The notes beneath the pieces are model-generated. The model was not told the DNA's origin. It made no database searches and saw only the letters and a list, made by a program, of their open reading frames with translations. From contig NZ_JAPVBJ010000012.1 of the NCBI RefSeq assembly GCF_026967985.1, forward strand, positions 1-64,000: a DNA stretch of 64,000 bases, read 5' to 3'. Positions 38,583-49,545 of the stretch are shown here, in pieces; positions within the stretch are counted from its first letter, which is position 1; each line of letters begins with the position of its first letter. This DNA comes from Modestobacter sp. VKM Ac-2984. Its GTDB lineage: Bacteria; Actinomycetota; Actinomycetes; Mycobacteriales; Geodermatophilaceae. Position numbers and translations under genes: made by a program.

Positions 38583-39191
38583 TCAGCTCTGCCGGGCCGG
38601 TGCGGCCTCGGGCTGCTGGTCCTCCGGGGAGCCGCGCCGGGAGACGAGGTAGAAGGCGGCCAGCACGCCGACGAGGACGACCACGACCACGGCCGTCCTC
38701 GCCGACGACCACGACGGCATGGCCGGGTCGACGACGTCGGTGGACTGCAGCCCGTCGGCCAGCGCCACCACCGCGCCGGACCAGTCACCCTCGACGATCG
38801 CGGGCTCGACGTCCTCGCTCATCAGGGCCTCGACGGCGTCCGGCTGCAACGTCGACGCGTCCCCGACCCACCACTCGTACTCGGCCTCGTCGGTCGCGAC
38901 GGCCAGCAGCACCTCCTCGTCGCCGAGCTCGGACTCCGTCGCGGTCAGCTCGGCCCAGTCGGCGTCGTCCTCCTCGCCGTCGAAGGAGGGGACGAAGACG
39001 ACGGACAGTTCGATCCCGGTCTGGGAGACCAGTTCGGCCACGGCGTCCTCGGCCGCCGCGGCGTCCGCCCCCAGCACGCCGGCCTCGTCGGTGATCGGTG
39101 CGTCGAGCGCGACCGGCTGCGCTGCCATCGCCGTCCCTGCGGGCAGCAGCCCGGCGATCAGGAGGACCAACAACGCGATTCGCGTGCGCAC
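38583..39191 (-). CDS. TPM-domain membrane-anchored protein
   Basis: About 202 aa from a GTG at 39191, with GAGG 8 nt upstream; the GTG at 39197 is an alternative. A signal peptide (RIALLVLLIAGLLPAGTAMA) precedes a TPM domain (PITDEAGVLGADAAAAEDAV, ELSVVFVPSFDGEEDDADW, EVLLAVATDEAEYEWWVGD), and a C-terminal membrane helix (TAVVVVVLVGVLAAFYLVS) ends the protein. TPM domains occur in YgcG and thylakoid Psb32-type proteins and are linked to acid phosphatase or photosystem repair; bacterial roles are unclear. The domain faces outside. Confidence 0.85.
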   Translation of the reverse strand: MRTRIALLVLLIAGLLPAGTAMAAQPVALDAPITDEAGVLGADAAAAEDAVAELVSQTGIELSVVFVPSFDGEEDDADWAELTATESELGDEEVLLAVATDEAEYEWWVGDASTLQPDAVEALMSEDVEPAIVEGDWSGAVVALADGLQSTDVVDPAMPSWSSARTAVVVVVLVGVLAAFYLVSRRGSPEDQQPEAAPARQS

Positions 39192-39423: not shown

Positions 39424-40146
39424 TCACTCAGCGCCCGGTTGCGCGCCAGCGGCGGCCAGGTCGGGCAGCGCACGGACGACCGGTGCGCTCCCACCGGCGA
39501 CCGCGACCAGGACCCGCCGCGCCGGGTCGCACCAGTCGGTGAGGTACAGCCCGCGGTACCGGCTCACCGCCCGCCCAGCCCGGTCGCGGCGCTCGGTCAG
39601 CCGGGACAGGTCGACCCGCCCCATCCCGGCCAGCGTCGTCGTCCCGGTCTTCACCAGGCACTCCTTGCGCGCCCAGTGCCGGAGGGCGAGCAGCGGCGGG
39701 TCCACCGCCGACCGCACCTGTTGCTGCTCGGCGGGGGCCAGCCCGGGGAACCGTCCGGCTGCCTGACCCTCCGCCGGGAACTCCTCGACGTCCACGCCCA
39801 CCGGGCGCCAGGCGGCGGCGGCGACCACCGCACCCCGGCTGTGGGACCAGCTGACGTGCACGTCGGGGAGGTCCACGAGGGTCGGGCGCCCGTGCCCCGC
39901 CGTCCTGCAGTCGGTGCACCACTGGTGCACCGCCAGGTCGATGAGGGGCCGTCCGGTCAGCGCCGCAGCGCACCGGCGCACGAGCAGGTGCGCGGCGACG
40001 TAGGCGGCCCGGTCCGCGGGGTCCTCCAGCGCGGCGCTGCGCGCCCGTTCGGCAGCGCCGAGCAGGCCGACGTCGGCGCCGGCGAGGACCTCGTCCGGGC
40101 TGGCCACCACGACCAACGGCGCTCGACGCAGGCCCGTGCGCACCAT
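39424..40146 (-). CDS. 4'-phosphopantetheinyl transferase (Sfp type)
   Basis: 240 aa from the ATG at 40146, with GGAGG 6 nt upstream. The two superfamily motifs are present: PVGVDVEEF (Mg-binding Asp/Glu) and WARKECLVKTG (W-x3-KE-x3-K), preceded by VHVSWSHSRGAVV. The enzyme attaches the phosphopantetheine arm of CoA to a conserved serine of carrier domains. It diverges from the Pls-type synthetase gene, whose carrier domain (Ser587) is the obvious client; other carrier proteins are possible. Confidence 0.9.
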   Translation of the reverse strand: MVRTGLRRAPLVVVASPDEVLAGADVGLLGAAERARSAALEDPADRAAYVAAHLLVRRCAAALTGRPLIDLAVHQWCTDCRTAGHGRPTLVDLPDVHVSWSHSRGAVVAAAAWRPVGVDVEEFPAEGQAAGRFPGLAPAEQQQVRSAVDPPLLALRHWARKECLVKTGTTTLAGMGRVDLSRLTERRDRAGRAVSRYRGLYLTDWCDPARRVLVAVAGGSAPVVRALPDLAAAGAQPGAE

Positions 40147-40392
40147 CCCAGCCCTCCGATCTCCTTGCCAGGGCCGCCAGCACGACCCCTCACTCACCGG
40201 AGTCGGTTGACCGCAATGGGAATTTGTTCGCGTCTCTGTGTTTGGAAATTCCTCGACGGAGAGCACCCATTCGAACACAGTGCGTGAAAGTTGAACAAAG
40301 AACTGTGAGTTCACCCAGAACGGGTGGCATGACCCCGTGTTTCTCCTTAGCGTCGGTCGCAATTCCTGATTGTCAACTGTGAGAGCGAGTTC
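40147..40392. promoter_or_regulatory. A+T-rich divergent promoter region of the NRPS and PPTase genes
   Basis: About half A+T by my count over 40201-40392, against roughly a quarter in coding DNA around it. It has CACAGT/ACTGTG (40276-40281, 40302-40307) enclosing AGTT/AACT, and CACCC-N5-GGGTG (40312-40326). A TTGACC at 40207 could be a -35. The pattern suggests a regulated promoter. Confidence 0.55.
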
Positions 40393-43300
40393 ATGTCGAC
40401 GGAGAGCGAGAGCCAGGACTTCATCCCGGGCTTCACCACCCCCAGGGACCCGGGGGTCGACTCCGCGACCCGACGCTTCTCCTTCTCCCAGAACGTCGCG
40501 GGTGTCCCGCCTCGAGCGCAGCAGGACACCACCCGGCTGTCCCAGTTCTTCGAGCGGACGTGCGACGAGCACCCCTCGGCGACGGCGCTGGAGTGCGACG
40601 GCGAGCGACTGAGCTACGCCGACCTCGACCAGCGGGCCAACCGCCTGGCGCACCACCTGCTGGGGCTCGGCATCCGGTCCGGGGCCCGGGTCGGGATCCT
40701 GCTGGACCGCTCGGTGAACACCTACGTCGCCCTGCTCGCGGTGACGAAGACGGAAGCGACCTTCGTCCCGATCGACCCGGCGGCCCCGGCAGACCGGGTG
40801 CAGTTCCAGGCCGAGGACTCCGATCTCGCGCTGGTGGTCACCACCACCTCGTTCGCCGCGACCTGCAGCGGGCTCCCCTGCCCGCCGCTCTTCCTGGACG
40901 AGCTGGGCGGCGACCTCGCGGCCGCCCCGAGCTGGCGCCCTGACCTGGAGACCGGCGGCGACCCGGTCTGCTACATCATCTACACCTCGGGCTCCAGTGG
41001 CCGCCCCAAGGGCGTCGAGATCGCCCAGTCGAGCATCTGCAACTTCATCGGCATCGTGCCGGTCCTGTACGGCGTCGAGCCGACCGACCGGGTCTACCAG
41101 GGCATGACGATCGCCTTCGACTTCTCCATCGAGGAGATCTGGCCGACCTGGGCCGTGGGCGCGACCCTCGTCGCCGGCCCCACGGACGGACGCCGGGTCG
41201 GCTCGGGGCTGGCCGACTTCCTGGCCGAGCAGGAGATCACGATGATCTACTGCGTCCCCACCGTGCTGGCCACGCTGGACCGCACCCTCCCCCTGATCCG
41301 CACGGTGAACGTCGGCGGCGAGGCCTGCCCGCGGGAGCTCGTCGACCGTTGGGGCCCCGGTCGTCGCATCCTCAACACCTACGGCCCGACGGAGACCACC
41401 GTCACCTGCACGATGGCCGAGCTCTACCCCGGCAAGCCGGTGACGATCGGACGGCCGCTGCCGACCTACCGCGTCACCCTGCTGGACGACGAGCGCCGGC
41501 CGGTGGGCAACGGCGAGATCGGCGAGATCTGCGTCGGTGGCCCCGGGGTGGCACTCGGGTACGTCAACCGGCCCGACCTGACGGCCGACCGCTTCCTGCC
41601 CGACCCGCACGGCTTCCCCGGTGAGCGGCTGTACCGCACCGGTGACCTGGGGCGCTTCCTCCCCGACGGTGAGCTGGAGTACCTCGGCCGCGCGGACAGC
41701 GAGGTGAAGGTCCGCGGCCACCGCGTCGACCTCCAGGAGATCGAGGGCATGCTCCTGCAGCACGACCGGGTCACGGCCGCGGTCGTCACGCTGCTGCCGG
41801 CGCCGGAGAGCGGCGGCGAGCTCGCCGCCTACGTGATCCCCCGCCCCGGGGACGACACCGCAGACCTCGTCGCCGAGCTGCACGACCTGCTCCTGGAGCA
41901 GCTGCCGCCCTACATGGTCCCGGCCTTCCTCGACGTCGTCTCCACCATCCCGATGCTGCCGAGCGGCAAGGCCGACCGGAAGGCGCTGCCCGAGCCACAG
42001 GGCCCGCGCCTGATGCGGGACACCGGGGCGTACGTGGCCCCGGACTCCCCCACCGAGGCCTGGGTGGCCGGGATCTGGGAAGAGGCGTTCGGCCTGCCGG
42101 GCGGGTCCGTGTCGGTCGAGGCCAACTTCTTCGACGCGCTCGGTGGTCACTCGCTCCTGGCGGCGCGGATCATCTCCACGATGCGCTCCAGCGACCTGGG
42201 CGCCGGGTTGTCCATCCTCGAGCTCTACCGGCACCCGACGGTTCGCTCCCTCGCCGCACACCTGGAGGACGACGCCCGGTCCGGTGAGGCAGCCGCGGAG
42301 CCGCACCTGCGCCGCCCGGTGCAGTCCTCCCGCCGCCGGGTCGCCGCCTTCGGGTCGGCCCAGTTCGCCACCTTCTACGGCATCGTCCTGCTGTTCCTGT
42401 TCCCTGCCGCGCTGGTCTACGCGCTGAACGACGGGGAGCCCTCGGCTGCGCTGGTCGTCCAGCTGGCCTTCGCCCTGCCTGCGTTCTTCCTCCTCGTCCG
42501 CTGGGTGCTCCCGGTCGTCGGCTCACGGCTGCTGTCCCGGGGGCTGCAGCCCGGTGACCACCCGCTGTGGAGCTGGACCCACCTGCGGGTCTGGACCGTG
42601 CAGAAGCTCATGGTGATCTCCCCGCTGACGGTCCTGAGCGGATCCCCGTGGGCGGCCACCTACCTGCGGCTGGCCGGCGCACGGATCGACGACGACTGCC
42701 ACATCGGGACGTCGGAGATCAGCCTCCCGGCGATGCTGGACATCGGCCCGGGCGCGACCATCGGCTACGGCACCCAGCTGCACGGCCACCGGGTCGCCGA
42801 CGGCGTCCTCTCCCTCGGCGTCGTCTCCGTGGGTGCCCGCGCGACCCTCGGCTCGCAGTCGCTGCTGGAGGCCGGCTCGGCGGTCGAGGACGGCGGGGTC
42901 CTGCGTGAGCAGTCGCTGCTGCCCGCCGGTGAGATCGTCCCCGCCGGCGCGACCTGGGCCGGTTCACCGGCGCGGGCCTCGACCGAGCCCGCCGACCCGG
43001 TGCTCGGGTTGATGACCGGCTGCACCGCCGCGCCCACCACCTGGACGCGTCAGCTCCGGACCGGTTTCGCCGCGGGCATCACCCTCCTGGAGCTGCTGCC
43101 CTTCTTCGTGCTGCTCCCCGTGGTCGCGCTCGTCTGGTGGGTGCTGCTGACCTTCGGGCTGGGCGCTGGCCTCCTGGCCACGGCGCTCTCCGGCCCGGTC
43201 TTCGTGGCCGCCTCGTGTGCGCTCATCCTGGGCTGCCGCCGGCTGGCCCTCACGGAGACGCCGCCGGGCGTGCACCACCTGCGCTCCAAGCTGGGGCTGG

Positions 43301-44559
43301 AGAAGTGGCTGGGCGACAAGCTCCTCGAGATGAGCTTGATGCTCAACAACAGCATGTACGCGACGCTGTACACCTCCATCTGGCTGCGTGCGATGGGCAC
43401 CAAGGTCGGCCGCGGCGCCGAGGTCTCCACCATCGCGAACATCGACCCCGACCTGCTCACCCTGGGCGAGGGCAGCTTCGTGGCGGACATGGCCAGCGTC
43501 GGCAGCGCCACCTACGCCAACGGGCACGTGGCCTTCCAGGTCACCGAGGTCGGCGCCCGCGCCTTCGTCGGGAACGCCGCCTACATCCCCTCGGGTTCGC
43601 ACCTGGGTGACGGCTCGCTGATCGGTGTCCGGAGCGTGCCGCCGACCGGAGGCGTGCCGGCGGACAGCTCGTGGCTCGGCTCCCCGCCGATCAACCTGCC
43701 GCGCCGGGAGATGTACGAGAACTACACCGAGGCGGAGACCTTCACGCCCAGCCGCCGCCGGGTGCGTGCCCGCTACGCCATCGAGTTCCTGCGCATCGTG
43801 CTGCCCAGCTCGATCCTGGCCCTGGCCATGTTCGGCACGCTGTACGGCGCCTCGGTGCTCGCGGCGAACCAGGGCGTGCTCGTCACCGTGGTGGTGGCGC
43901 CGCTGATCGCGCTGCTCTCCAGCCTCGCCGTCGTGGTGGGGGTCGCACTGCTCAAGTGGGTCCTCGTCGGCCGGTACAAGACGCGGGTGGAGCCGCTGTG
44001 GAGCGGCTTCGTGCGCCGGACCGAGTTCGTCACCGGCATCTACGAGGCGGCCGCCGTCCCGGCGCTGCTGACCTGGCTGACCGGTACACCGCTGCTCGGC
44101 CCGCTGCTGCGGCTCTACGGGGCGAAGATCGGCCGGCGGACGCTGATCGACACCACCTACCTCACCGAGTTCGACCTGGTGACCCTGGGCGACGACGTCT
44201 CCGTGGGCACCAACGCCTCGCTGCAGACCCACCTCTTCGAGGACCGCGTGATGAAGATGGACCACGTCATCATCCGGGACCGGGCCAGCGTCGGGGACAA
44301 GTCCGTCGTCCTCTACGGCTCCACGGTGGAGGAGGACGCCACCATCGCCGACCTCTCCCTGGTCATGAAGGGCGAGGTGCTGCCGGCCGGCACCGCGTGG
44401 AGCGGCATCCCGGCCCAGAAGGTGGGCCGCGCCCCGGCCAGCACGCTGCCGGTCCGGGACGACCCGGCGCTCGACACCACTGCCCTCGACCCGGCGGTCG
44501 ACAACCCGACCACCGAGAGCCGGCAGCTCAGCACCGCGTCGAACAGCCGGGAGGCGTGA
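40393..44559 (+). CDS. Pls/PosA family nonribosomal peptide synthetase (A-T-membrane-LbH)
   Basis: 1388 aa. Residues 45-535 are an adenylation domain: A3 IYTSGSSGRPKGVEI (196-210), A4 AFDFSIEEIW, A5 NTYGPTETTVT (328-338), A7 YRTGDLG, A10 LPSGKADRKAL with Lys526. A carrier domain follows (FFDALGGHSLLAARII, phosphopantetheine Ser587). No condensation or thioesterase domain is seen. The rest has membrane helices (about 658-705 and later) and three segments with left-handed-beta-helix-like repeats. This is the layout of Pls-type synthetases such as poly-epsilon-lysine synthetase, which make isopeptide-linked amino acid polymers at the membrane. Glu at the A4 position (D-F-E) hints at a basic amino acid substrate, which is inference only. 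Confidence 0.88.
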   Translation: MSTESESQDFIPGFTTPRDPGVDSATRRFSFSQNVAGVPPRAQQDTTRLSQFFERTCDEHPSATALECDGERLSYADLDQRANRLAHHLLGLGIRSGARVGILLDRSVNTYVALLAVTKTEATFVPIDPAAPADRVQFQAEDSDLALVVTTTSFAATCSGLPCPPLFLDELGGDLAAAPSWRPDLETGGDPVCYIIYTSGSSGRPKGVEIAQSSICNFIGIVPVLYGVEPTDRVYQGMTIAFDFSIEEIWPTWAVGATLVAGPTDGRRVGSGLADFLAEQEITMIYCVPTVLATLDRTLPLIRTVNVGGEACPRELVDRWGPGRRILNTYGPTETTVTCTMAELYPGKPVTIGRPLPTYRVTLLDDERRPVGNGEIGEICVGGPGVALGYVNRPDLTADRFLPDPHGFPGERLYRTGDLGRFLPDGELEYLGRADSEVKVRGHRVDLQEIEGMLLQHDRVTAAVVTLLPAPESGGELAAYVIPRPGDDTADLVAELHDLLLEQLPPYMVPAFLDVVSTIPMLPSGKADRKALPEPQGPRLMRDTGAYVAPDSPTEAWVAGIWEEAFGLPGGSVSVEANFFDALGGHSLLAARIISTMRSSDLGAGLSILELYRHPTVRSLAAHLEDDARSGEAAAEPHLRRPVQSSRRRVAAFGSAQFATFYGIVLLFLFPAALVYALNDGEPSAALVVQLAFALPAFFLLVRWVLPVVGSRLLSRGLQPGDHPLWSWTHLRVWTVQKLMVISPLTVLSGSPWAATYLRLAGARIDDDCHIGTSEISLPAMLDIGPGATIGYGTQLHGHRVADGVLSLGVVSVGARATLGSQSLLEAGSAVEDGGVLREQSLLPAGEIVPAGATWAGSPARASTEPADPVLGLMTGCTAAPTTWTRQLRTGFAAGITLLELLPFFVLLPVVALVWWVLLTFGLGAGLLATALSGPVFVAASCALILGCRRLALTETPPGVHHLRSKLGLEKWLGDKLLEMSLMLNNSMYATLYTSIWLRAMGTKVGRGAEVSTIANIDPDLLTLGEGSFVADMASVGSATYANGHVAFQVTEVGARAFVGNAAYIPSGSHLGDGSLIGVRSVPPTGGVPADSSWLGSPPINLPRREMYENYTEAETFTPSRRRVRARYAIEFLRIVLPSSILALAMFGTLYGASVLAANQGVLVTVVVAPLIALLSSLAVVVGVALLKWVLVGRYKTRVEPLWSGFVRRTEFVTGIYEAAAVPALLTWLTGTPLLGPLLRLYGAKIGRRTLIDTTYLTEFDLVTLGDDVSVGTNASLQTHLFEDRVMKMDHVIIRDRASVGDKSVVLYGSTVEEDATIADLSLVMKGEVLPAGTAWSGIPAQKVGRAPASTLPVRDDPALDTTALDPAVDNPTTESRQLSTASNSREA

Positions 44560-44561
44560 CC

Positions 44562-45893
44562 GTGCCCCAGACCAGCGAGCACCAGAACATCGTGGCCCCA
44601 CTGCCCCCGGAACCCGGTGCCACCGTGGCGGCGCTGCCGCACAGCTGCGCACCGGCACCGGCCGGTGACGTCGCCGGCACCCCGGCCGAGGGCGCTCCGG
44701 CGACCCCGCGCCCCCGAGCACGTCTGATCGGGATCGATGCCGCTCGCGGCATCGCCCTCGTGGGCATGATGTCGGTGCACCTGATCCCCGCGGCCACCGA
44801 CGACGGCGACGTGTCGTTGGCGTGGCTGCTCTCCAACGGCAAGGCCTCGGCGCTGTTCGCCCTGCTCGCCGGCGTCGGCATCGCCTTCTCCACCGGTCGG
44901 CGCCGTCCGCCACGCGGTCTGGCCTGGCGGGCCGGCGCGCTGTCCCTGCTGACCCGGGCCGTGATCATCGCGGCGATCGGCCTCGCGCTCGGGTACGTCG
45001 TCGGCACCGGCGACGCCGCGGTGATCCTGGCCTACTACGGGGTGCTCTTCGCCCTGGCCATCCCGTTCCTGCGGCTGTCGACCCGCGGGCTGGTGGTGGC
45101 GGCGGCGCTCGCAGCGCTCGTCATGCCGCTGGTCAGCTATGGGCTGCGCCTCGAGCTGACCCCGGTCGCCGTGGCCAACCCGACGCTGACCGACCTGGTC
45201 ACCGACCCGCTGGGCCTGCTGCTCCAGCTGACCCTGACCGGGGTGTTCCCCGCCCTGGTCTGGATCGCCTACCTGCTGGCCGGGATGGCCGTCGGCCGGG
45301 CGGTGCTCGCCTCGCGGCGCGTCGTCAGCCAGATCACGCTGCTCGGCCTGGCGCTCGCCCTGGCCTCCAGCCTGCTGTCGATGCTGCTGCTGACCGTCGG
45401 CGGGCGGGGTGACCTCCTCCGCGCGGATGCCGTGCAGACCATGGACTTCGAGCTCTACCAGGAGACCCTGACCTGGGGGCCCTCGGGGACGACGCCGACG
45501 AACAGCCCGTGGTGGCTGGTGGCCACGGCGCCGCACAGCGGCAGCCCGCTGGACCTCGCCTTCACGATCGGGGTGGCGCTGGCCGTGCTGGGTGGGTGCC
45601 TGCTGCTCGGCCGGGGCCTGCAGCCGCTGCTGCGCCCGCTGGCCGCCGGCGGCAGCATGACGCTGACGCTCTACAGCGTCCACCTGCTGCTGGTGGCCGC
45701 ACCGATCCCCCGTGGCGTGCTGAACCTCGTCGTCCAGGTCGTCCTGCTGCTGACCTTCGCCCTGGTCTGGAACCGGAGCCACCTGCGCGGGCCGCTGGAG
45801 GAGCTCGTCTGGCGGGCGACCGACGCCGTGCGACGGAAGGTGCTGGGCTCACCGGGAGCGCACCGGGCACCGGCCACGACGGCCGGCAGCTGA
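44562..45893 (+). CDS. polytopic membrane protein, HGSNAT/DUF1624-DUF418-like acyltransferase fold
   Basis: 443 aa from the GTG at 44562, with GGGAGG 7 nt upstream, 2 bp after the NRPS stop. A Pro/Ala-rich N-terminus leads to RLIGIDAARGIALVGMMSVHLIP, the signature of DUF418/HGSNAT-type membrane acyltransferases (Asp and His in the first helix), then about ten helices and a final GSMTLTLYSVHLLL. Such proteins move acyl groups across membranes or acylate surface polymers. Co-transcription with the Pls-type synthetase suggests it modifies or exports the product. Confidence 0.8.
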   Translation: MPQTSEHQNIVAPLPPEPGATVAALPHSCAPAPAGDVAGTPAEGAPATPRPRARLIGIDAARGIALVGMMSVHLIPAATDDGDVSLAWLLSNGKASALFALLAGVGIAFSTGRRRPPRGLAWRAGALSLLTRAVIIAAIGLALGYVVGTGDAAVILAYYGVLFALAIPFLRLSTRGLVVAAALAALVMPLVSYGLRLELTPVAVANPTLTDLVTDPLGLLLQLTLTGVFPALVWIAYLLAGMAVGRAVLASRRVVSQITLLGLALALASSLLSMLLLTVGGRGDLLRADAVQTMDFELYQETLTWGPSGTTPTNSPWWLVATAPHSGSPLDLAFTIGVALAVLGGCLLLGRGLQPLLRPLAAGGSMTLTLYSVHLLLVAAPIPRGVLNLVVQVVLLLTFALVWNRSHLRGPLEELVWRATDAVRRKVLGSPGAHRAPATTAGS

Positions 45894-45895
45894 GC

Positions 45896-46600
45896 GTGTT
45901 CGGGCGTGGCGGTGACCGGCGGCTGGCGCTGGTCTACCGGGGCCCGGCCGCCACGGACGGGTGTCCGGAGGCGGTGGCCGAGGCGCTGGCGCGGAGCCGG
46001 TGGGACCTCGACGTCCGCTTCGTCGGGCCCAAGGAGCGGCTGGCCCTGGAACCGGCGGTGCTCGCCTCCGCCGTGCTCTACGCCCAGCCCGGCGGCGGTG
46101 AACTGAAGAAGGCGTGGCGCAAGCTCCGCAAGCAGGCCCCGGCGGTCCAGGAGTACGTCGCGGGTGGCGGCCGCTACCTCGGTTTCTGCCTGGGCGGCTA
46201 CCTCGCCGGGGAGACCCCCGGCTTCGGGCTCCTGCCCGGGGACGCCGACCAGTTCGTCTCCTCCCCCGGCGCGTGGCCGACCCACACCGACGACGCGGTG
46301 GCCACGGTGGTCTGGGACGGTCGCCGCCGCCAGGTGTTCTTCCAGGACGGCGCCTGGTTCGACCTCGACCCGACCCGCGGGCCGGCCGAGGTGCTGGCCA
46401 CCTACGAGAACGGGCTGCCCGCGGCCGTGGTCGCCCCCTTCGGCGCCGGCGCGGTCGGCGTCGTCGGGCCGCACCCCGAGGCGACCCCGGACTGGTTCAC
46501 CGACGTCGGGCTGCCCGTGCCCGCGGACCTGCGGGCCGACCTCACCCAGGACCTCGTCGACCGGGTGATGCGGATCGGTCAGGTCACCCCGACCCGCTGA
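45896..46600 (+). CDS. BPL-N domain protein, class I glutamine-amidotransferase-like
   Basis: 234 aa from a GTG at 45896, 2 bp after the previous stop. The middle VAGGGRYLGFCLGGYLAGET has a cysteine at the nucleophile elbow (GFCLGG), and a His near the end (VGPHPEATPDWF) fits a Cys-His pair. This is the BPL-N (biotin-protein-ligase N-terminal-like) type of amidotransferase fold, found alone in many actinobacteria. A hydrolytic or amide-transfer role on the NRPS product, such as cleavage or C-terminal amidation, is possible but unproven. Confidence 0.8.
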   Translation: MFGRGGDRRLALVYRGPAATDGCPEAVAEALARSRWDLDVRFVGPKERLALEPAVLASAVLYAQPGGGELKKAWRKLRKQAPAVQEYVAGGGRYLGFCLGGYLAGETPGFGLLPGDADQFVSSPGAWPTHTDDAVATVVWDGRRRQVFFQDGAWFDLDPTRGPAEVLATYENGLPAAVVAPFGAGAVGVVGPHPEATPDWFTDVGLPVPADLRADLTQDLVDRVMRIGQVTPTR

Positions 46601-46672: not shown

Positions 46673-47842
46673 TCAGCCCTCGTCGAGGAAGCCGGCCACG
46701 ATCGTGCCGAACTGCCCGGACCGGTTGTGGCCCACCCCGGCCGGGGCGACGAGCCGGGTGTTGAGGCCCTGAGCCGAGTACCACTGCTGCCCGGCCTGCG
46801 CGCCGTAGGGCCCGGAGAGTGCGTTGAACCCACCGCCGGCGCCGGTGTCCTGGGCACCGGTGTCCCAGCGCAGGGCGACCTTGCCCTTGACGTCGGCAGG
46901 GATGCTGGCCCGCGCCGCCGGCGCGCCACCGCCGCCGATGGCGATGACCCCACCGCCGCCGGACCAGAGCGCCGGGTGGGCGGGGAAGACGAAGCGGGTC
47001 GCCGCCTGCGCGCCCGAGGAGTAGCCGGCGAACCAGAGCTCACCCGCGCCGTACTGGGCCTTCGCGTCGGCGATCAGCGCCGCCAGGTACGTCGCGTACC
47101 CGGCGGCGTCCCCACGCTCCCAGCACTGACAGGAGCGGTTCGGGCTGAACGGCGCCACGAGCACCATGTTGCGCTCCCGGGCCACCGCGGCCAGCCCCTT
47201 CGACCCGCCGATGGCGTAGGACTGGGTCGGGTTCTCGACGCCGTACTCGCCGGTGCCGTCGGCGTACACCAGCAGGCCGATCGGCTTCGCCGGGTCGATG
47301 CCCTCGGCGAAGACCCGGTAGTCCGCGGTGTACCCCGCGGCGCTGAAGGACGTCGTCCGGTTGGTCAGGGGTGCCGTGGGCGCCGTGCGCGCCGGGGTGT
47401 CGGCGGCCGGGGCCGGGGCCGGAGCGGGTGCCGGAGCCGGAGCGGGGGCCGGAGCCGGAGCGGGGGCCGGGGCCGGAGCGGGGGCCGGGGCCGGGGCCGG
47501 GGTGCTGGCGACGGGGGCGGGGGCCGGGGCCGGAGCCTGGGCTGGGGCCGGGGCGGCCGTCGTGGGAGCCGGCGCCTGGGTGCGCTGACGGGCCCGGTCG
47601 GCGTGCCGGGGGGCCTTTTCGGCCCGGACCGCGTCGAGCTGGACCGCGGTCTCCGCCTGCGGCTGCTCGCTGCTCGCCGGCGAGGCGGCGGGCGTGGAGT
47701 CCGCGACGTTGGTGGCTCCGAACATGGCGCTCACGCACAGGAAGGCGGCGGCCACGCCGGCACGTGCCCGCCGCCCCCGGCGGGTGGTGAGGGCGGACAG
47801 GAAGCGGCTGCCACGGCCGCTCCGGGTGTGACGTCTGGACAA
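46673..47842 (-). CDS. secreted alpha/beta-hydrolase-like protein with a PA-repeat linker
   Basis: About 389 aa if the TTG at 47842 is the start (AGGG 8 nt upstream); a GTG at 47869 is an alternative. A signal-like region (RAGVAAAFLCVSAMFGATNV) is followed by a long Pro-Ala linker of about 60 residues and then a hydrolase domain: SFSAAGYTADYRVFAEGIDP, ELWFAGYSSGAQAATRFVF (nucleophile Ser in GYSSG) and VAPAGVGHNRSGQFG (candidate His). This resembles secreted feruloyl esterase or poly-ester hydrolase families, but I cannot choose one. PA linkers often span the cell wall, so it may be anchored or wall-passing. Confidence 0.7.
   Translation of the reverse strand: MSRRHTRSGRGSRFLSALTTRRGRRARAGVAAAFLCVSAMFGATNVADSTPAASPASSEQPQAETAVQLDAVRAEKAPRHADRARQRTQAPAPTTAAPAPAQAPAPAPAPVASTPAPAPAPAPAPAPAPAPAPAPAPAPAPAPAPAADTPARTAPTAPLTNRTTSFSAAGYTADYRVFAEGIDPAKPIGLLVYADGTGEYGVENPTQSYAIGGSKGLAAVARERNMVLVAPFSPNRSCQCWERGDAAGYATYLAALIADAKAQYGAGELWFAGYSSGAQAATRFVFPAHPALWSGGGGVIAIGGGGAPAARASIPADVKGKVALRWDTGAQDTGAGGGFNALSGPYGAQAGQQWYSAQGLNTRLVAPAGVGHNRSGQFGTIVAGFLDEG
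47397..47580 (-). repeat. Pro-Ala repeat coding region
   Basis: Low-complexity GCC/CCG-type codons encode alternating Pro and Ala within the esterase-like gene. Shorter units (GGGGCCGGAGCC types) repeat many times, so length is likely to vary. Confidence 0.8.
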
Positions 47843-48105: not shown

Positions 48106-49545
48106 ATGCACGCGGGTCGTCGACGGGCCGCGGCCGCTGCGCTCGCCGGAGCCGTGCTCCTCGCCGGCTGCACGACGGGCGGCTCCCCCGATCCCGAGCC
48201 CCCACCCACCGACGCCCCGGAGGCCGAGGGCTGGGCCGAGCCGTGGGCCGACCGGCCGGTGGTCGACCTGCGCTTCGACGTCGCCGAGGACCTGGAGACG
48301 GTCGCCGGTGAGGAGCGGGTGGTCTTCACCCCCGACCTGAACACCTGCGTGCTGGTCTTCCGCTCCTGGCCCAACAAGCCGGCCACCGCGCGGGCGGGCA
48401 GCGGGCTGACCGTGTCCGAGGTGCGGGTCGACGGCGAGCCGGCCGAGGCGCGCGACGTGCCGGCCGGGGCTCCCGAGAGCGCGCCCGCCGGCACCCTGCT
48501 GGAGGTGCCGCTGGCCGAGTGCGCGGACGCCGGCGACGAGATCACCGTCGACATCGAGTTCGAGGTGGAGCTCGGGCCCGACGTCAACGAGCGGGTCGGC
48601 ACCTCCACCGACGTCGACGCCGCCTGGTTCGCCACCGCATTCCCGCTGCTCGCCTGGGAGCGCGGGCGGGGATGGGACCGCAGCCCGGGCGTCGCCGTCG
48701 CCGGGGAGATGGCGGTGAGCGAGGACTTCGAGCTGGCCTCGCTGGAGGTGGTCGCGGACTCCCGGTACGAGGTGCTCGGCACCGGCGAGGCGGTCGGCAC
48801 CTCCGACGGGCCCGGCGACACCACGGTGCACGAGTTCACCGCCCCCTCGGTGCGGGACGTCGCGGTCACCGTCGGGGAGCTGGACGTGCAGTCGGCCGAG
48901 ATCGGCGGCGTCCGGGTCCACGTGGGCCTGGACGAGGGCGTGGCGGAGGCGACCACGGCAGAGTGGCTGGCCCAGCTCGAGGAGTCGATGGCAGCCCTCG
49001 TCGAGCTGCTGGGCCCCTTCCCCTACGACGACCTCTGGGTCTCGGTGCTGTCCAGCCAGACCAGCGGCATCGAGTTCCCCGGCGCGGTCCAGTTCGGCGA
49101 CGTGGACCCGGACTTCCGCCGGGCCCTGGTGACCCACGAGCTGGCGCACATGTGGTTCTACGGCCTGGTCGGCAACAACCAGGGCGTGCACCCCTGGCTG
49201 GACGAGTCGTTCGCCACCTTCGCGCAGATGGTCGTGCACGGCGAGGGCTCGGCCAGCATGGCCGACCTGCCCGGGTCCCGCCGGCACGGCGTGGGTGAGC
49301 CGATCCAGTACTGGGAGCAGTTCCGGCGGCCCAGCTCCGCCTACTACGACACGGTGTACATCGTCGGCGGGACGACCCTGGTGGACGCCCGGGCCCAGGT
49401 GGGCGCCGAGACGTTCGACGCGGCGCTGCGGGAGTACCTGCGCGCGAACGCCTGGTCGATCGCCACGCCGGAGGACGTCCAGGACGCCTTCGCCGAGTTC
49501 CCCGAGGTGCTCGACGAACTGGCGGAGGTCGGCGCACTGCCCTGA
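48106..49545 (+). CDS. M1 family metallopeptidase lipoprotein
   Basis: 479 aa from the ATG at 48106 (AAGGGG upstream). A lipoprotein signal ends in AVLLAGCTTG (Cys near 22). The catalytic domain has the gluzincin zinc site His344-Glu345-x2-His348 in VTHELAHMWFYGLVGN and the third ligand Glu367 in WLDESFATF, exactly the HExxH-x18-E spacing of M1 peptidases. The N-terminal half is a saddle-type beta domain. The GAMEN-type exopeptidase motif is only loosely represented (SGIEFPGAV), so an aminopeptidase or broader endopeptidase role is possible. It acts outside the membrane. Confidence 0.9.
   Translation: MHAGRRRAAAAALAGAVLLAGCTTGGSPDPEPPPTDAPEAEGWAEPWADRPVVDLRFDVAEDLETVAGEERVVFTPDLNTCVLVFRSWPNKPATARAGSGLTVSEVRVDGEPAEARDVPAGAPESAPAGTLLEVPLAECADAGDEITVDIEFEVELGPDVNERVGTSTDVDAAWFATAFPLLAWERGRGWDRSPGVAVAGEMAVSEDFELASLEVVADSRYEVLGTGEAVGTSDGPGDTTVHEFTAPSVRDVAVTVGELDVQSAEIGGVRVHVGLDEGVAEATTAEWLAQLEESMAALVELLGPFPYDDLWVSVLSSQTSGIEFPGAVQFGDVDPDFRRALVTHELAHMWFYGLVGNNQGVHPWLDESFATFAQMVVHGEGSASMADLPGSRRHGVGEPIQYWEQFRRPSSAYYDTVYIVGGTTLVDARAQVGAETFDAALREYLRANAWSIATPEDVQDAFAEFPEVLDELAEVGALP

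Follow-up and report, generated by a model that had tools for sequence, protein, structure and literature searches.

Polycationic homopolymers of amino acids serve as food preservatives and are studied as delivery agents; how chain length is limited in the producing cells, and how these withstand what they make, is largely open. The closest described systems are Pls of Streptomyces albulus, the poly-ε-lysine synthetase, whose gene forms a reported operon with the peptidase gene pldII (PMC8117764); PDAPs, the β-poly-L-diaminopropionate (PDAP) synthetase of S. albulus PD-1; the γ-poly-diaminobutyrate (PDAB) clusters pldA-dat-ask and pddA-D, for which dedicated dat and ask genes are reported; and PosA of Acinetobacter baumannii, which makes δ-poly-L-ornithine and is reported to be encoded by a single-gene operon (PMC10522769). 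The locus described below lies in a 64,000 nucleotide stretch of the Modestobacter sp. VKM Ac-2984 genome (contig NZ_JAPVBJ010000012.1, positions 1 to 64,000; the whole stretch is called the window), where a synthetase of the Pls/PosA family is accompanied by genes for a phosphopantetheinyl transferase (PPTase), an HGSNAT-type membrane acyltransferase and a BPL_N-domain protein.

We consider it somewhat probable, from the sequence evidence below, that this cluster makes a short, positively charged chain of a single small diamino acid, namely diaminopropionate (Dap), diaminobutyrate (Dab) or ornithine, and encodes enzymes that process it. The four genes, all with Pfam or TIGRFAM matches, are where an initial annotation of this DNA had placed them, and a gene for an M1 metallopeptidase farther downstream probably belongs to the set as well. 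The features are as follows.

39424-40146, minus strand: PPTase (PF01648 ACPS, 28.8 bits against a cut-off of 25), divergent from the synthetase gene
40147-40392, no strand: intergenic region between the PPTase and synthetase genes, with probable divergent promoters
40393-44559, plus strand: Pls/PosA-family synthetase, 1388 amino acids (TIGR02353 above cut-off, and Pfam domains)
40549-41970, plus strand: its adenylation domain, residues 53-526 (PF00501, PF13193), pocket DFEYNGTVTK by alignment
42061-42264, plus strand: its carrier (T) domain (PF00550), codon of Ser587 at 42151-42153 within a GGHS motif
42409-44415, plus strand: its membrane and putative polymerisation region, three times a transmembrane pair then a β-helix domain (TIGR02353 span, hydropathy, model)
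44556-45893, plus strand: HGSNAT/TmAT-type polytopic acyltransferase, 445 amino acids (HGSNAT_cat PF07786, 40 bits against 22)
45896-46600, plus strand: BPL_N protein, 234 amino acids (PF09825, 49.4 bits against 24.2)
48106-49545, plus strand: M1 metallopeptidase with a lipoprotein-like signal (PF01433; LLAGC read by eye)

The synthetase scores 559.9 bits against TIGR02353 ("Pls/PosA family", curated cut-off 423.1) and is the sole protein of its genome above that cut-off; the family itself is already known, and PosA goes under its NCBIfam name too. A Pfam scan finds AMP-binding (PF00501, E = 2.3e-74), AMP-binding_C, PP-binding and Hexapep in it; at E 0.001 it detects neither a condensation nor a thioesterase family. 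Hydrophobic segments fall into three groups (residues 652-702, 901-954 and 1129-1184), and in a model of residues 622-1388 (pLDDT 86.7) short β-helix-type strands follow each helical pair, so that the protein consists of adenylation and carrier domains, six transmembrane helices and three tandem domains. Profiles, hydropathy and model agree here with the initial annotation, which had described adenylation, carrier, membrane and β-helix-like segments without condensation or thioesterase domains. The same order of domains is found in Pls, which also belongs to TIGR02353 and has a peptidase gene nearby, but the C-terminal part of the window protein is only 29-33% identical to those of four poly-lysine-type sequences. 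By profile and by fold the tandem domains match hexapeptide acyltransferases and γ-carbonic anhydrases, as single domains each time; whole-model Foldseek TM-scores are low, 0.08-0.16 among the matches listed. Of three loops inspected only that of the third domain retains a histidine, and this residue, His1280 in QTHLF.DR, is kept in all 18 aligned sequences, the four poly-lysine-type ones included. Since hexapeptide acyltransferases are usually trimeric with the active site between subunits, the three domains may form a trimer built into one chain, with one working site at His1280.

The adenylation pocket places the enzyme apart from Pls. In alignment the window has DFEYNGTVTK where poly-lysine-type enzymes have DAESIGTVVK, which is taken as the lysine pocket from gene context and from the Ala at position 2; that position is reported to be Phe in PDAP and PDAB synthetases, Met in PosA and Ala in Pls (PMC10522769). 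The window enzyme has the Phe of the PDAP/PDAB type. It also retains Asp, Glu, Thr and a further hydroxyl residue (D243, E247, T329 and T338) at the positions aligned with the Asp, Glu, Thr and Ser named as diamine contacts in PosA (PMC10522769). Lysine, one of the substrates that the initial annotation had put forward for assay, is unlikely, because Phe stands where lysine enzymes have Ala. The pocket DFEY.GTVTK (in one case DFEF) occurs in 92 of 111 sequences, or 82 once repeats are removed, and the remaining 19 comprise thirteen DAES.GTVVK, three DFECLSAVTK, two DIWQSTATNK and one DALLVGGIMK. In a quick tree, which flags long branches, leaves out the two DIWQSTATNK sequences and does not gather the window-type rows in one clean clade, the thirteen DAES-type enzymes stand on their own branch apart from the Phe-type group, and the DFECLSAVTK enzymes are nested within the larger Phe-type group. 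On pocket and tree together an ε-poly-lysine cluster is rejected. A Dat-family gene lies next to all three DFECLSAVTK genes (the family was checked for one), which fits the reported pldA-dat-ask order. Two outlying members may be mentioned here. Nocardia transvalensis has a second, very divergent one (L114, 1009-4983) with the pocket DALLVGGIMK, lacking Glu at position 3, and the planctomycete Singulisphaera acidiphila has one (L149, 10157-13882) with the pocket DFEFIGTVTK that groups beside the Dab-type enzymes.

The gene set recurs in several actinobacterial families, and the closest named genomes found are those of Modestobacter. The genome scan covered the best 80 of 124 relatives, most similar first, so the locus counts are not those of a random sample. 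With the window and loci from further genomes added and repeats (L033-L040 and L159) removed, there were 85 distinct loci, 77 of them with at least 6 kb downstream and 8 with less; L097, L103 and L137 are in the 77-locus counts though no pocket was read for them, and L185 was also dropped from the next-gene count of 82 loci. Gene starts and neighbours come from a simple gene caller, profiles were seeded with the window proteins, and a neighbour was counted at 100 bits (150 for the PPTase) within 9 kb of the synthetase. On this basis BPL_N is linked to the synthetase in 65 of the 77 loci, HGSNAT in 45, M1 in 26, a guanidino-enzyme (arginine-dihydrolase/dimethylargininase-like) in 12 and the PPTase in 11, and 20 loci have at least two BPL_N copies. 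The initial annotation had staked its proposal on the downstream genes being conserved with the synthetase, and for BPL_N and HGSNAT they are. Directly after the synthetase gene, on its strand, come BPL_N (40 of 82 loci), HGSNAT (14), the guanidino-enzyme (11) or M1 (one locus); elsewhere the next gene is of another family or on the opposite strand. Four-base overlaps between genes are frequent across the related loci (by gene-caller starts), and in the window the GTG start of the HGSNAT-type gene overlaps the synthetase stop, with 2 nucleotides between the HGSNAT-type stop and the start of BPL_N, a tight packing as first described.

Counts by genome give the same linkage. Among 39 genomes (the window's own and 38 relatives) ten have a full synthetase of the window type, and in an eleventh, G004, the synthetase end is cut by a contig boundary and adjoins HGSNAT and BPL_N; a BPL_N match at 1e-5 was found in 11 of these 11 genomes and in none of the 28 others. 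In 296 genomes sampled across the class, with synthetases scored as two candidates per genome, the window type of BPL_N is present in six, five of which are those with the synthetase type. This linkage in other actinobacteria rules out a chance or isolated grouping of the genes. The initial annotation had not recognised the combination from described clusters. No description of the BPL_N/HGSNAT set is among the literature matches listed, with subscription papers and supplements outside their coverage; the combination is not peculiar to one genome. The PPTase, which would activate the carrier domain of the synthetase, is indeed present and divergent, but as a "dedicated" part it is better seen as a local add-on: its 11 loci are all Geodermatophilaceae, and it was rejected as a core member of the set.

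Which diamino acid is loaded turns on partly conflicting evidence. That the monomer is Dap or Dab, which would make the enzyme one of PDAP/PDAB type and its accessory set an unreported one, falls in our view just short of probable. It draws on the Phe at pocket position 2, on the nesting of the dat-linked DFECLSAVTK enzymes in the same larger group, and on S. noursei, the species in which S. albulus is now classed and which includes the PDAP producer PD-1. Of the two TIGR02353 genes of S. noursei A-2-1 the first is poly-lysine-type and the second has the pocket DFEYVGTVTK, and by elimination the latter is likely the counterpart of the PDAP synthetase gene. The PDAP gene is a single open reading frame of a size similar to that of the window synthetase gene. 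It is reported as 4338 bp (PMC4668381) and the A-2-1 frame is 4266 bp before its stop, so the equation with PD-1 is unproved. BPL_N is next door in the S. noursei clade member L146, but HGSNAT and M1 were not seen beside it, and the likeness of PDAPs to the window set is drawn through the A-2-1 gene and the published description. The γ-poly-Dab clusters are likened to the window through the Phe-type group; they differ in their dat and ask genes, and no BPL_N appears in the three DFECLSAVTK maps. A supply of Dap or Dab is unexplained in the window genome, which has no match to SbnB (1e-20), Dat (1e-40) or ornithine cyclodeaminase (1e-10). Among 50 (of 65) genomes with related synthetases, 18 have an SbnB match at 1e-60 and 32 a Dat match at 1e-90. 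S. noursei A-2-1, for its part, has two ornithine-cyclodeaminase-family genes and no SbnB match at 1e-60, so the absence of SbnB is weak evidence against Dap.

The same lack of recognised Dap and Dab routes speaks for ornithine, and a δ-poly-ornithine like that of PosA is a possibility that we hold tentatively. The window pocket equals DMEHNGTVSK of PosA at 7 of 10 positions, Asn299 included, but in the published comparison (PMC10522769) Phe at position 2 goes with Dap and Dab enzymes, and the ornithine enzyme has Met there. Thirteen related clusters include the guanidino-enzyme gene, which could supply ornithine. Among solved structures the encoded protein comes closest to Sll1336 and Alr4995, arginine dihydrolases known as ArgZ and AgrE, and all 13 proteins keep the asparagine of FTAN/YTAN, presumably a mark of dihydrolases. 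However, one such protein tested against NCBIfam scored nearer to dimethylargininase (212 bits, cut-off 300) than to arginine dihydrolase (146 bits, cut-off 450), all of its matches falling below cut-off; it could form citrulline instead of ornithine, and its gene is missing in the window cluster, with 65 of the 77 loci lacking it.

A different form of TIGR02353 protein was met in three genomes (G015:C221 L010, G011:C207 L011 and G333:C110 L186), with frames of 850-885 amino acids that span the membrane region in full and seem to leave no room for an adenylation domain. In G015 and G333 an SbnB-family gene is on the same contig, and this short form may be a dedicated Dap polymer system.

To our knowledge the BPL_N domain is known from fungal biotin ligase and has no assigned role. 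The window protein has the Pfam match, a class-I glutaminase-like fold (model pLDDT 91, best structural matches PdxT and HisH) and a Cys98-His193-Glu195 triad, which is complete in 91 of 92 copies. γ-Glutamyl peptidase 1, a hydrolase of the same fold, stands at rank 48 among the structural matches, where identities are low (10-19% for the matches considered); cyanophycinase is another hydrolase with this fold. A hydrophobic leader is present on 19 of the 92 copies, 17 of them twin-arginine-like by a loose test that is not a trained predictor, and 73 copies have none, that of the window among them. Export leaders occur on extra BPL_N copies, in families other than that of the window, and sixteen of the 19 leader-bearing copies are downstream of an HGSNAT gene in Micromonosporaceae, Pseudonocardiaceae and Nocardiaceae. 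Copies inside and outside the cell would mean a substrate on both sides of the membrane, for which the polymer is the obvious candidate, and a hydrolase that acts on the polymer on both sides is the reading we favour. The description "amidotransferase-like" in the initial annotation is apt for the fold, but as a function it may mislead, given the exported copies in the same family. In its most specific form, to be taken as a tentative proposal, BPL_N proteins of this type would be a new family of cysteine isopeptidases specialised on polycationic homopolymers, with cytosolic and twin-arginine-exported members that work as a pair, and the HGSNAT-type partner would N-acetylate the exported polymer across the membrane. 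If true, this would both protect the producer and tailor its product, in a class of polymers for which off-loading and immunity are poorly understood; it would also be the first role proposed for a bacterial BPL_N in the literature that we encountered, and give the domain its first substrate.

Other functions for BPL_N can be weighed on the same facts. Instead of cutting the polymer it might serve in off-loading or editing, as a cysteine hydrolase that acts like a thioesterase and sets chains free from the carrier domain; the lack of a thioesterase match in the synthetase, the place of BPL_N right behind the synthetase gene in 40 of 82 loci and its 73 leaderless copies all agree with this, but exported copies could not reach a cytosolic carrier, and 12 of 13 poly-lysine-type synthetases, Pls being of this type, have no adjacent BPL_N (in L136 one BPL_N lies between a window-type and a poly-lysine-type synthetase gene). 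Recombinant Pls is reported to yield C-terminal esters in vitro by itself (PMC9606270), which implies that no partner is needed for off-loading, and we regard the off-loading role as unlikely. Still less likely, indeed rather improbable, is a role as a genuine glutaminase or glutamine amidotransferase, with the ammonia going into synthesis or amidation of the monomer or of the polymer end. The complete triad and the closeness of the fold to the glutaminase subunits PdxT and HisH are what such an enzyme would have; yet no amidotransferase sequence was matched significantly by profile (best E 0.061), no synthase-like neighbour stood out in maps in which most neighbour families are unannotated, and exported copies would, we infer, lack ATP and a cytosolic partner.

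The HGSNAT-type protein has no sequence match at E 1 among PDB structures, and its class therefore rests on Pfam and on motifs: DxxR, Rx10H, FxxxxG, the Arg of transmembrane helix 3 and the Tyr of transmembrane helix 9 are each kept in 46-48 of 49 sequences. HGSNAT itself acetylates an amine. These motif residues are named for the TmAT superfamily, whose members move acyl groups onto acceptors outside the cytosol (PMC12423673), and from the two properties N-acetylation of the exported polymer is the natural guess for the window protein. HGSNAT-type genes also lie near two of the three dat-linked DFECLSAVTK synthetase genes (L184, 14129-15355; L187, 12858-14087), which suggests a tailoring step shared with poly-Dab-type clusters.

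The M1 protein is a predicted exported zinc peptidase encoded near a Pls-type gene, as PldII is, and the zinc motif HExxH...E is present in 44 of 44 sequences. PldII is described as coupled to pls, located outside the membrane and needed for self-protection, and is termed an aminopeptidase of endo type, the M1 family not being named in the excerpts of PMC9223678. An M1 gene directly follows the synthetase gene at each of the 13 poly-lysine-type loci, in agreement with the reported pls-peptidase operon (PMC8117764), and from this gene position we infer that PldII belongs to the M1 family.

The working of the cluster can be pictured as follows. The PPTase would arm the carrier domain, the adenylation domain would load the diamino monomer, and the membrane region with its three acyltransferase-like β-helix domains would join the monomers and probably deliver the chain across the membrane. 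In the cytosol the BPL_N cysteine hydrolase would cut the polymer or free stalled chains, and exported BPL_N copies in other genera would do likewise outside. There the exported polymer would receive acetyl groups on its free amines from the HGSNAT-type protein, which would carry them through the membrane, and would be trimmed or cleared by the M1 peptidase, much as PldII reportedly degrades poly-ε-lysine. That the product is acylated or trimmed, as the initial annotation had supposed, is made plausible by the conserved HGSNAT-type and BPL_N neighbours. Several observations weigh against this picture: beside the unexplained supply of Dap or Dab in the window genome, 10 of the 77 loci have none of BPL_N, HGSNAT and M1, so the accessory set is dispensable; in genome G261 a BPL_N gene (L221, 6592-7236) has no synthetase in the 14 kb covered; and in Modestobacter an oppositely oriented gene separates M1 from BPL_N. 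The general reading, a polycation polymer cluster with processing enzymes, is on balance likelier than otherwise. If it holds, the conserved, tightly packed set offers BPL_N, HGSNAT-type and M1 proteins as named candidates for chain-length control and self-protection, and many actinobacteria, for example Micromonospora and Geodermatophilus, become possible producers.

The initial annotation gave 39424-46600 as the extent of the set. Its four genes are real, but that end is probably too early, as the M1 gene at 48106-49545 recurs with the set and in other loci adjoins BPL_N or HGSNAT; in the window it is three genes beyond the synthetase (the HGSNAT-type, BPL_N and opposite-strand genes being counted). 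The flanks of the set are these.

38586-39191, minus strand: TPM-domain gene, upstream flank
46676-47755, minus strand: proline/alanine-rich protein without a Pfam match, downstream flank

Both were considered as members and rejected; each is found in 12 loci, Geodermatophilaceae in the maps, a recurrence that fits the shared gene order of close kin.

Two arrangements with more than one synthetase gene were seen among the relatives. In Streptomyces pinistramenti (L136, 9956-20537) a window-type synthetase with BPL_N is followed on one strand by a poly-lysine-type synthetase with M1. Geodermatophilus africanus and G. siccatus (L084 and L085, with L082 and L141) have two synthetase copies each, and in each species one copy keeps HGSNAT and has no BPL_N nearby.

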